A stretch of DNA of 36,882 nucleotides from a virus. Location: positions 1 to 36,882 of IMG/VR virus record IMGVR_UViG_3300044638_000429, one strand, 5' to 3'. Every line of letters starts with the position of its first letter. The first letter of the stretch is position 1. Both the position numbers and the translations under genes were made by a program. Shown piece by piece: positions 11,729 through 20,197 of the stretch. Under the pieces are notes generated by a model that was given only the letters and a program-made list of their open reading frames with translations, made no database searches and was not told the DNA's origin.

Positions 11729-12097
11729 TTACAACTCCTTTGCAAGTACAGACCACTGTGGCCTGTAACCTTCGTCTTTTAAAAATGTCTTTGCCCAGCC
11801 CTTGCGGCCTGCCAAAGTCACTCTGGTGCAGCCAATCGACTTGCCCCAGGATTCGATCATTGGTCGCATCCGTGAGAGTTCATCTAGGTCGCCACCAGCC
11901 AAGAAGTAATGCAAGTTCTTGAGTCGCGGGTAGACAATGATCTCTGTCAATACCACCGAGTTTGAGGCTGGCCACAACTGCAATCTGTGATCCCCCACCA
12001 TCTCGGCAACATCGTCAAAATTGTGTGTGCCTCCAGAGTATTCTAAAGCAGCCTCCACATGATGGCGCAGTCTCTTCAAGTGCTCAGAATCGCTCAT
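11729..12097 (-). CDS. GNAT-like acetyltransferase-fold protein, 122 aa
   Basis: The start at 12097 overlaps the preceding stop as ATGA. The product has the compact alpha/beta pattern of a GNAT acyltransferase: WPASNSVVLTEIIVYPRLKNLHYFLAGGDLDEL, then MIESWGKSIGCTRVTLAGRKGWAKTFLKDEGYRP, the last part resembling motif B and the C-terminal strand. Proteins like this are common beside podovirus tail genes. The acetyl-CoA loop (Q/RxxGxG/A) is not evident, so catalytic activity is uncertain. Confidence 0.6.
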   Translation of the reverse strand: MSDSEHLKRLRHHVEAALEYSGGTHNFDDVAEMVGDHRLQLWPASNSVVLTEIIVYPRLKNLHYFLAGGDLDELSRMRPMIESWGKSIGCTRVTLAGRKGWAKTFLKDEGYRPQWSVLAKEL

Positions 12098-13572
12098 CGT
12101 TTCCCGCCGGCCACCGCCTCCAGCCGCATCACCCCGATGCGCCAATCAGCCAAAACCGCACCCGTCACCTTGACATTGACTTGCCGCGCCATAAACCGGA
12201 CATCCGTAGGGTTGGCCGCCGTATATGGCCCAAATGTGGACTGAGCACCTGTCGGGTAATTGCGGGTCTTGAATGAAACCACCGCCTCGCCAAGTGTCTG
12301 CTCATCTGGGACAACTTGCCGCACAGACATCAGGTTGTCGCCGTTGCCAAGCTGCACTGGCCCAGACTCAGCGTAGATGCTGGCGCTGTCATAGGCAAAG
12401 CCCACTTCGTGCTCGTAGATGTAGCCATCAGATGAGACCAGCAGCGGGTTGGTAAACACACCCGCATCAGTGCCAGCGGTACGGGCCAATGAGCCTATGT
12501 TCCAGTGGTTTTCGCGGTAGTTGTAGGTGACATAGCTGTCATTCTCATTGCTGCCGCTGCTTGGGTAATACCACCAGATTTCGCCAAACTGGCTGTTATG
12601 GACAGCGTATACCTTGGATGCTTGGTTGAAGTTCATGTTGCTGAACACATAGTCAGACACATCACTTGGCAGTGGCTTGAGGTAGCCGTCATAAGTCCAG
12701 AAACCGGACTTGCTCATCCAAATGGCCGCCGTGTCAATTGCCGCCACAGCTTGGGCTGAGATCAGGCCGCAGCCAGATCCGGCCTTCTCAAAGCCGTAAA
12801 CAAATGGTGCGCCAATGTACTGAGCCGTGTGGACATCCACATCGGTGAACAGTAGGTTGACGCCCTTGACGCGCTTGCCGGCCAGCAGAGTGCCTACTGT
12901 GGCCAACTCATAGTCACCAGCCTGATTGGTGGCCAGTGGCGTCCAGACTGTATTGTCCTCTTGGTCTGACCACTGCACCTTGCGGGAATTTCCACCAGCG
13001 CCAAGGGCAAACAGGATGCGCTCGGCAGTGACCAAGAGAGCCTTGTTGCCCGTTGGGGCATTGGTGATGGCCGCTGCCAAGGTCGGGGTTGTGAAGCCAA
13101 GCTGCCACTCGTAGAGCTTGCCGTCAGCGCTTGAGCACGCCACCAAATACTCGCCCCATGTGTCAAAAGACCATGTGGTGGCCGGAATGAGTCCACCTAA
13201 GTCTGGTCTGGCCACACCATAACTGTATGTGCCATAAGTGCCGTATCCGTAGCCGGTCTTGATCGTGGCATCGGCAATGCCGGCAGTGATGCCGGTTGGT
13301 GTGATTTCCTTGAGTGTCCCCGCCTCGTTCATGGCGTACAGCTTGGATTGCGTACCAGCCGCAATCCAGCGCTCGGCATCATTGGCACGCCAAGTGATGA
13401 AGCCCCTGCACAGACCCGTCATCTGGCTTTCCGAGCGCTTTCTCCAGCCGCCCATAGGCCGCAGGGTGTTCTCGTACCAGCGCACCAGATTCGCGTCATA
13501 CCAGCGCCCCGCAGCTTGGTACTCCGTGCCGTTCCTGTAAATGCCTGGTGGTAGTTTTAGTGGGATGTACAT
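12094..13572 (-). CDS. Beta-propeller-like tail protein (P22 gp10/tail-nozzle type)
   Basis: A 492-aa beta-rich protein with repeated Trp-containing blades (GRWYDANLVRWYENTLRPMGGW, WSFDTWGEYLVACSSADGKLYEW, VQWSDQEDNTVW, GEIWWYYPSSGSNENDSYVTYNYRENHWNIG). This layout is typical of the distal tail-hub or 'stabilisation' proteins that close the channel below the adaptor in P22-like and SU10-like phages. No enzymatic motif. It follows the jelly-roll-like 215-aa tail protein with a 2-base gap, and couples to the GNAT-like gene downstream. Confidence 0.6.
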   Translation of the reverse strand: MYIPLKLPPGIYRNGTEYQAAGRWYDANLVRWYENTLRPMGGWRKRSESQMTGLCRGFITWRANDAERWIAAGTQSKLYAMNEAGTLKEITPTGITAGIADATIKTGYGYGTYGTYSYGVARPDLGGLIPATTWSFDTWGEYLVACSSADGKLYEWQLGFTTPTLAAAITNAPTGNKALLVTAERILFALGAGGNSRKVQWSDQEDNTVWTPLATNQAGDYELATVGTLLAGKRVKGVNLLFTDVDVHTAQYIGAPFVYGFEKAGSGCGLISAQAVAAIDTAAIWMSKSGFWTYDGYLKPLPSDVSDYVFSNMNFNQASKVYAVHNSQFGEIWWYYPSSGSNENDSYVTYNYRENHWNIGSLARTAGTDAGVFTNPLLVSSDGYIYEHEVGFAYDSASIYAESGPVQLGNGDNLMSVRQVVPDEQTLGEAVVSFKTRNYPTGAQSTFGPYTAANPTDVRFMARQVNVKVTGAVLADWRIGVMRLEAVAGGKR

Positions 13573-18024: not shown

Positions 18025-18900
18025 CTAAATGGATGTCCAAGTCTCTGAATTATCAACGATTGAGACCCAAGTTTCTGCACTGTCGCTGATCGTTGTGTAA
18101 GTTTCTGCCGTATCGCCGATTGTCGTGTAAGTCTCAGCCGTGTCGCCGATGGCCGTGTAGCTTTCTGCCGCATCCGGTATCGCACCCCAGCCAAATCCAA
18201 AGATGATGCCAACAGCGCCGGCGGCTGCATTGCCGCTGATTTCAATTGAAATGACACTGCCAACACTGTCAACTGACCCCGTACCCTCAACACCAGTGAT
18301 GTCTTGGAACGATATGACCTCTGCGCCCATCGTGCCGACATCACCCGTGGCGCTGTTGCCGGTGACAATTGGCGATACAAAGACGGCTTGAACATCACCT
18401 ATGGCCGCATTGCCAGTGATGGCAATAGATACAGACAGCCCGATTGTTCCAACATTGCCTGTGGCAATTGTTCCATCTTCCTGAACAGATCTTGATGCTA
18501 AAACGCTGTCAACAGATAAAGTTGATTCGTTTCCATCTGCTTGGGCAGATGTTGATGTCGAAACGCTGCCAACAGATAAAGTTGACTCATTCCCATTTTC
18601 TTGAACAGATGTTGATACCGAAACGCTACCAACATTGCCAGTGGCAGCATTGCCACTTTCCTCAATAGTTCTAGCTGTTGTAACGCTACCAACAGCACCT
18701 GTGGCCGCATTGCCGGTGATGGCAACGGTTTTAGTAAAAGTTACAGTCCCGACACTGCCAGTGGCAACATTCCCATTCTCTTGGATAGACCTGGTGGCCA
18801 GTAATGTCCCAACAGCACCAGCGGCTTGATTGCCGCTGATGACGACATTGCCTATCCCGTAGACGCCCCTGCCGTAATAGCCCGTCCCATAAGCAGCCAT
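18025..18900 (-). CDS. Repeat-built tail-region protein, 291 aa
   Basis: After a Gly/Tyr-rich start (AAYGTGYYGRGVYGIGN), about ten imperfect repeats of about 20 residues run from residue 20 to 235. Each opens like GNxATGxVGTV and continues with a Ser/Thr-rich strand and a turn. The C terminus is a second repeat type: five tandem copies of a 10-residue unit, each centred on AET(Y/W). It is probably a fibrous or solenoid beta structure, between the fibre gene and a small tail protein. No homologous domain recognised. Confidence 0.65.
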   Translation of the reverse strand: MAAYGTGYYGRGVYGIGNVVISGNQAAGAVGTLLATRSIQENGNVATGSVGTVTFTKTVAITGNAATGAVGSVTTARTIEESGNAATGNVGSVSVSTSVQENGNESTLSVGSVSTSTSAQADGNESTLSVDSVLASRSVQEDGTIATGNVGTIGLSVSIAITGNAAIGDVQAVFVSPIVTGNSATGDVGTMGAEVISFQDITGVEGTGSVDSVGSVISIEISGNAAAGAVGIIFGFGWGAIPDAAESYTAIGDTAETYTTIGDTAETYTTISDSAETWVSIVDNSETWTSI

Positions 18901-18915: not shown

Positions 18916-19371
18916 TTAAGCCAGACGAATCAGGCCGGTGCTTGCATCGTTGGTTGGCATGGTAAGCGTGAATGTTCCAGCGGTCACTGTCTGTGAGCCA
19001 AAGGTGTGGACGCTGACCGCCTTGTTGCTTTGCGTGCTGTTGTAAATCAGGACAGCATCAAACGCTGTGCCAAGCGTGACCGAGGAATAAGTGATGCTGG
19101 CGCTGGGGGTCACAAAGGCTGTCGTGCCGCTGGTGCTTGGCGCAGTGCCAAAGGTCACTGTGACACCGCCGGCAGTGTAGCCAGTACCTGTCACTTCGCC
19201 TGTCGCGCTGTAGGCGGTAGTGGTCGCATTGACAGTGGCGCTGGCCAAGTACAGCGCGGCCTTGAAGGTGTCGGCAGTCGTTGCTGCACGGATAACGCCA
19301 GTGCCAAAGTTGTGGTGACCGACAAGCAGTTGGCCTTTGAAACTTGTACACATTGCCTGAGTATTCGCCAT
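18916..19371 (-). CDS. Tail/virion beta protein, 151 aa
   Basis: A Thr/Ala/Ser-rich beta-sandwich-like protein starting MANTQAMCTSFKGQLLVGHHNFG, with the segment FKAALYLASATVNATTTAYSATGEVTGTGYTAGG. This pattern is widespread in phages, encoded near adaptor and tail-fibre genes, and is usually listed as structural. Exact location in the particle unknown. Confidence 0.6.
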   Translation of the reverse strand: MANTQAMCTSFKGQLLVGHHNFGTGVIRAATTADTFKAALYLASATVNATTTAYSATGEVTGTGYTAGGVTVTFGTAPSTSGTTAFVTPSASITYSSVTLGTAFDAVLIYNSTQSNKAVSVHTFGSQTVTAGTFTLTMPTNDASTGLIRLA

Positions 19372-19573: not shown

Positions 19574-20197
19574 TTATCCAAAAGTCTTTGCACGGGTCAA
19601 CAAAGCTCCACCAGAGGAAGCGCTTCGATCATCGGCGGTTTGTGAATCGTTTAAGGCACGCTCATACAGCGTTGCCCATGTCTGAATTCTCGCATCATCT
19701 TGCAGGTATGGCGCAGCTTGGAGCAATGCTCCATAAAGATAAATGTCGGGGTTTGACGCCAAAAGCCAGTTGCTGGCCACGCTGTCCGACAGCTTTGTCA
19801 GTTTTGCGTAATAGGTCAACTCAATCGTGTAGTTTGCGTCCGGTGTCGGGACAATCCGAAACTGGTTGCCGACCACGCCAAAGAACTTGGGCTTGCCACT
19901 GGCCGTGTAGTTGGTTGCCTCGTTGTCCAGCGCATCAATGCTTAAAAACCCCAATGGGGTCTGCGGGTTGGTGCTGGTCAACTTCAGGGATTTTGTCTCT
20001 AGAAAGTCATCAGGCACAGCGCCATACTGCGCGTCAAAGTACGCATTGGCCCTGACAATCATCTGCCTTGTGCGCAGAGTGCGCTCCACTTGCGCCTCAG
20101 CCAAAGAGATAAAGTCAGGAATAGCAGCAGTCAAATCTGTACGATTCAACCAATCTGCAATGGATGCCTTTAGCTCGGTGTAGGTTGTCAGTGCCAT
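19574..20197 (-). CDS. Head-tail adaptor (SU10-type)
   Basis: A 207-aa protein opening ALTTYTELKASIADWLNRTDLTAAIPDFISLAEAQVERTLR, then PDDFLETKSLKL, YYAKLTKLSDS and NPDIYLYGALLQAAPYLQDD. This matches the adaptor family that forms the ring below the portal in SU10-like and P22-like phages. It is downstream of capsid and portal, as expected. Its ATG overlaps the preceding stop by one base. Confidence 0.75.
   Translation of the reverse strand: MALTTYTELKASIADWLNRTDLTAAIPDFISLAEAQVERTLRTRQMIVRANAYFDAQYGAVPDDFLETKSLKLTSTNPQTPLGFLSIDALDNEATNYTASGKPKFFGVVGNQFRIVPTPDANYTIELTYYAKLTKLSDSVASNWLLASNPDIYLYGALLQAAPYLQDDARIQTWATLYERALNDSQTADDRSASSGGALLTRAKTFG

Follow-up and report, generated by a model that had tools for sequence, protein, structure and literature searches.

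Background

Trimeric fibres of T7-type phages have a fixed attachment site, which is built by the ring proteins of the tail, the adaptor gp11 and the nozzle gp12, and is not known to contain a repeat protein. The nozzle protein gp17 of the Kuravirus SU10 forms the fibre dock with one of its loops, where a trimeric fibre is gripped near its N-terminus by three tryptophans about ten residues apart; according to the published account, each of W839, W847 and W857 touches Ile24 in one chain of the short tail fibre (PMC9509320). The gp17 sequence at these residues is GPIWSDFQEITWDDPSIKELVW, with a spacing of 8 and 10.

Proteins comparable to the one analyzed here are encoded by the phages phiM5 (gp18), OH (gp46), Octadecabacter virus DB2 (gp11) and Venkman (gp51). 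All four share with it a C-terminal array of aromatic residues at ten-residue spacing and a slot between adaptor-side genes and fibre or nozzle genes, but their middle repeats are unrelated. A YG-containing start is present in phiM5 gp18 and OH gp46, whereas no MAAYG start is seen in DB2 gp11 or Venkman gp51. These proteins are without assigned function or misnamed. Counterparts have been annotated as a serine-rich adhesin (UOF77096), as ribonuclease E (URC15513) and as the E3 ubiquitin ligase HERC6 (QLF88126), names which look like errors arising from low-complexity matches. The repeat-protein family was not found described in the literature titles and abstracts that were screened, and a literal look-up of motif strings of the family and of its neighbouring fibre returned no phage paper.

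Genomic context and architecture

The window (the whole stretch of DNA that was analyzed, a virus record of 36,882 bases from a freshwater phage) carries a structural run on its minus strand, consisting of a terminase-like ATPase, a portal protein (PHROG 1216), a major head protein (PHROG 1328), the adaptor, a PHROG 644 protein, the repeat protein, a tail fibre (PHROG 6942) and, further on, the nozzle (PHROG 3287). The adaptor matched solved head-to-tail adaptors, including that of SU10 (E 9e-11), so that the tails of both phages contain an adaptor of the same family. Together with the likeness of the nozzle to solved podophage nozzle chains (Table 1), this indicates a short-tail machine of the podovirus type. 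The fibre gene, which the first-pass annotation had placed next to the repeat gene, indeed begins 9 nt downstream of it. An identical (100%) copy of the repeat protein is present in IMGVR_UViG_3300033993_000024.

Table 1. Features of the repeat-protein locus (positions in the window)
Feature	Position	Strand	Evidence or remark
Nozzle protein	12094..13572	minus	PHROG 3287; resembles solved podophage nozzle chains
Downstream tail fibre, 264 aa	18015-17221	minus	PHROG 6942 tail fibre, E 2.4e-7
Repeat protein, whole gene	18900..18025	minus	291 aa, ATG start
Array 2 with in-register W238, residues 238-291	18028..18189	minus	10-residue aromatic spacing
30-bp tandem repeat inside array 2	18069-18170		TRF; 3.4 copies, 79% match
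Array 1, ten full 20-aa GNxATGxVG units and a half unit, residues 23-234	18199..18834	minus	
60-bp tandem repeat inside array 1	18471-18634		TRF; 2.7 copies, 81% match
N-terminal YG block and linker, residues 1-22	18835..18900	minus	Alignments; near-invariant in GN-type relatives
Upstream gene, conserved neighbour	18916..19371	minus	PHROG match: PHROG 644 (no function assigned)
Head-to-tail adaptor	19574..20197	minus	SU10_adaptor PF24175; PHROG 2941

The protein begins with a YG block (residues 1-17, MAAYGTGYYGRGVYGIG), followed by two different arrays. About ten GNxATGxVG repeats of 20 residues and, after them, five repeats of 10 residues had been described at first pass, and both arrays were confirmed. 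The units of array 1 start at residues 23, 43, 63, 83, 103, 123, 143, 163, 181, 203 and 223; the unit at 163 has 18 residues, that at 181 has 22, and the last is the half unit. Those of array 2 start at residues 244, 254, 264, 274 and 284, and the tryptophan of the preceding GFGWG motif is in register with them, giving six aromatics: W238, Y248, Y258, Y268, W278 and W288. Over residues 19-234 the identity at lag 20 was 0.36, compared with 0.20 in the best of 2000 shuffles; over residues 235-291 the identity at lag 10 was 0.62, compared with 0.33 in the best of 2000 shuffles. In the DNA, the 30-bp period noticed earlier was recovered along with a 60-bp one, the units of both arrays being only about 80% alike.

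Searches of Pfam, PHROG and NCBIfam with the repeat protein revealed no credible family (best E 0.41 in Pfam and 0.4 in PHROG, no match in NCBIfam), and a PDB sequence search gave no convincing match. A tblastn search of 50,697 phage records produced no match at 1e-3, and a profile search of genome contigs found no relative. Structure prediction, which the first-pass annotation had recommended, yielded an AF2 model (29 sequences) with a mean pLDDT of 51 and two strands per array 1 unit; the model of a relative, L011 (67 sequences), had a mean pLDDT of 47. Apart from the beta-rich pattern these models are uninformative and, since they are poor, no fold backs the docking reading proposed below. 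Foldseek with the pLDDT-51 model retrieved nothing from the PDB at E <= 0.001; a single viral model was matched at 3.6e-4.

Conserved ends and exchangeable middle

The best match of the portal protein among phage records was in MW202879 (63%), which encodes in the same slot a protein of 226 aa whose start and ETW tail are the same but whose middle is an R/S-rich repeat. At least 85 close relatives and at least 470 profile-level stretches were found in IMG/VR. The ends were compared in 304 distinct proteins among the matches listed, from scans by start, scans by tail and P0002 relatives (119). By regular expression 230 of these carry both ends, 23 the start only and 51 the tail only, and their middles differ, being of the GN type or of the R/S-rich type. 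At least three aromatics at exact ten-residue spacing were found at the C-terminus of 301 of the 304 proteins, the average in shuffles being 0.85 of 304. The three exceptions are L160 and L398, which are false regular-expression matches and not members of the family, and L202, which is frame-shifted. Part of the set was gathered by its tail, yet the array is present in 252 of the 253 proteins that have a YG start. In a wider count, a W/Y array occurred in 310 of the 4336 distinct ORFs of at least 100 aa in the sequences gathered. Of these, 291 belong to the repeat-protein family, 7 are its counterparts in other phages, 11 are shadow ORFs or chance cases and 1 is a fragment of a family member. 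Most of these counts are not independent, because the GN-type relatives are close kin.

The two arrays are not equivalent: array 2 is kept, whereas array 1 is replaced by unrelated repeats in relatives, a pattern suggestive of a stalk that carries a docking tail. ETW-type tails were also seen behind other starts (MFGF..LSEAAFSSL) and other middles (SETAAAxDS) in L368, L409, L366, L373, L376, L393 and L401; the N-terminus and the middle are therefore both exchangeable.

The protein is acidic, beta-rich in its predicted pattern and almost free of Lys and Arg, and it adjoins a fibre gene, features which would also suit a side fibre or adhesin in its own right, with repeats that attach directly to glycans of the cell surface and aromatics that stack on sugars. 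Variation of repeat number between lineages is compatible with such a role. However, receptor-binding ends normally diversify, while in this family it is the middle that varies between two conserved ends. The aromatic array, moreover, is shared by phages that infect Sinorhizobium, Ochrobactrum and Octadecabacter. We regard a side fibre as improbable.

Repeat number and its rate of change

Comparison of repeat number among related phages, another check suggested at first pass, revealed that it is not fixed across divergent relatives, whose lengths range from 171 to 353 aa (complete proteins among the first 80 loci). In the 253 listed proteins with a YG start, lengths cluster at 11-15 modulo 20 (154 of 163 GN-type and 76 of 90 other-type proteins), and both arrays therefore change by about 20 aa at a time. 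Since repeat number differs between relatives, expansion and contraction of repeats has happened.

The rate of this change was estimated in 231 entries with both flanks by comparing the identity of the upstream 450 nt with protein length, a difference being defined as at least 8 aa. Length differed in 0 of 10 pairs at >=99.5% upstream identity, in 0 of 48 at 97.5-99.5%, in 16 of 147 at 95-97.5% and in 319 of 969 at 90-95%. The pairs in which both flanks were close are few; among them length differed in 0 of 7 at >=97.5% and in 1 of 10 at 95-97.5%. The repeats change over lineage time and slowly, although short-read assembly may hide recent changes.

These results bear on the view that the gene encodes a variable surface protein of the contingency type, with tandem DNA repeats that grow and shrink in number within populations. 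Tandem repeats of 60 and 30 bp, and a length quantized in 20-aa steps between relatives, are what such a locus would be expected to have. On the other hand, none of the 58 pairs at >=97.5% upstream identity differed, which argues against a fast contingency locus, subject to the masking of recent changes by short-read assembly, and the repeat units, only about 80% alike in DNA, also speak against it. We consider this explanation very unlikely. The expansion and contraction of units put forward in the first-pass annotation is thus supported by the 20-aa steps between relatives but is slow, and the potentially variable surface protein envisaged there, in the sense of a hypervariable switch, was not borne out: the variation is lineage divergence, and of the two neighbours it is the downstream fibre that is variable, from about residue 40 onwards.

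Association with the KPEVG fibre

After removal of L160 and L398, 302 listed members remained, 12 of which had too little downstream sequence, leaving 290 that could be read. A fibre with a KPEVG start lies 3' of the repeat gene in 288 of them, within 200 nt in 272 and about 550 nt away in 16; L162 and L070 are without such a fibre in the sequence at hand. An HNH-like homing-endonuclease ORF lies between the repeat and fibre genes in L163, L190, L249, L020 and L059, and an ORF of this kind fills the gap in those that were read of the 16 members with the more distant fibre.

The start of the fibre is near-invariant (KPEVGAS.DTWG). In 209 distinct fibres the consensus was 0.94, 0.99 and 0.94 for residues 1-10, 11-20 and 21-30, respectively, and about 0.25 at residues 71-110 and from residue 71 on. 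With a conserved array at the end of one gene and conserved first 30 residues in the next, two conserved elements face each other. In the fibre of the phage itself, W23 lies within the conserved DTWG motif, at the same distance from the start as Tyr23-Ile24-Tyr25 of the SU10 fibre, a likeness which we give as an observation and not as proof.

The association was also approached from the fibre. Ten phage records, representing nine distinct phages, contain a KPEVG fibre start at E <= 0.01, and six of the nine have a clear array directly upstream (MW202879, DB virus 2, MW202496, MW202711, phiM5 and OH), one has a partial array and two have none. The arrays of two of them, MW202879 and Octadecabacter virus DB2, had already been found from the repeat-protein side; the remaining seven comprise four clear cases and the partial one. 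The upstream genes of MW202496 and MW202711 encode six tryptophans each, with one 9-residue step in MW202711; phiM5 gp18 has W171, W181 and W191, plus Y161, and OH gp46 has W147, W157, W167 and W177. The partial array, in MJing1, reads W, W, F, W with one longer step. In CV-1-33 an adaptor precedes the KPEVG fibre and in Tunturi_4 another fibre does, both without the array.

At new loci found by the fibre start, four or more aromatics spaced by exactly ten residues occur in 44 of 103 distinct upstream ORFs, compared to 7 of 358 among the remaining plus-strand ORFs of these loci, which served as controls; dropped beforehand were 39 loci in which the fibre start was not matched, 2 without upstream DNA and 1 without an upstream ORF. 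With a stricter W/Y test 44 of 104 new loci passed, with array sizes of 6 (21), 4 (14), 3 (5), 5 (2) and 7 (2), and 60 failed, many of which have an adaptor directly upstream. The association between array and fibre is strong, yet not obligatory for the fibre, and these frequent KPEVG fibres without an array neighbour count against docking. In some of the failing loci, among L498-L513, F or Y takes the place of W at ten-residue steps (e.g. TYSEQTSPTTTFSSQSA), and these F/Y arrays sit before a further C-terminal segment.

An assembly factor outside the virion, a chaperone whose array holds the fibre N-termini during trimerization and is then released, would be expected to have the same gene linkage, so that linkage fits it exactly as it fits docking. 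Moreover, phiM5 gp18 is without the GenBank note 'detected in phage particle proteome', unlike its flanking proteins gp17 and gp19, which speaks for the chaperone and against docking. Nevertheless, gp17, its upstream neighbour, is a virion protein, placing the slot within a structural cluster, and repetitive beta stalks with a YG-rich start are not known as a usual chaperone design. A chaperone thus appears unlikely.

A proposed stand-alone fibre dock

The explanation that we prefer, at about even odds (a probability of roughly 0.5), is that the repeat protein is a stand-alone virion protein joining a podovirus-type tail to a trimeric fibre, in which array 2 docks the fibre and the stalk is exchangeable. 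The YG-rich N-terminus would anchor the protein to the tail, and array 1 would form a beta-rich stalk that tolerates changes in the type and number of its repeats without loss of function. Array 2 would wrap around the fibre trimer, the product of the next gene, at its N-terminal end and offer each fibre chain one aromatic side chain, in the manner of the three tryptophans of the SU10 dock loop. The virion location, the anchor role, the trimeric partner, the physical contact and the stoichiometry are inferred.

By analogy we propose that array 2 is an SU10-type dock on a separate protein. Its aromatics, from W238 to W288, recur at a spacing close to that in SU10, and a fibre with a conserved N-terminus is encoded nearby. 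The two differ in that the SU10 dock is a loop of the nozzle beta-propeller, whereas the candidate dock forms the C-terminus of a small, repeat-stalked protein that is encoded separately from the nozzle (Table 1), and it carries 3, 4 or 6 aromatics at a spacing of exactly ten. These differences count against docking, as does the fact that no homology of array 2 to the SU10 dock was demonstrated. The N-terminus of the nozzle itself (residues 24-43) contains W24, W32 and W43, whose spacing of 8 and 11 recalls the SU10 dock; these residues may instead belong to an ordinary propeller blade.

Array sizes in the 301 listed proteins were 3 (21), 4 (96) and 6 (184), none having 5. Under the docking model a size of 3 would supply one aromatic per chain and a size of 6 two rounds; a size of 4, which is common and no multiple of three, is left without explanation and counts against docking. 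A rule that array size is always a multiple of three was dropped for the same reason.

More tentatively, at somewhat below even odds, the ten-residue aromatic array could serve short-tailed phages in general as a portable socket for fibres. It would then be part of a stand-alone adaptor whose stalk is interchangeable, would come in sizes of 3, 4 or 6 but hardly ever 5, and would allow the exchange of fibres that have no more than their first 30-40 residues in common. If the docking reading is right, a gene labelled hypothetical or misnamed in many environmental phages would be the piece that holds the fibre, and its signature, an aromatic at every tenth position before a KPEVG..DTWG fibre, would find attachment points and fibre genes in metagenomic phages. 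It would also be a natural example of attachment, in the conserved ends, kept apart from reach, in the replaceable repeats.

In the R/S-type relatives (many loci among L186-L240) the gene upstream of the repeat gene often belongs to another family (LFTAAPSDTGGGTEVSGNAYAR), which is similar to phiM5 gp17, a virion protein according to its GenBank note.
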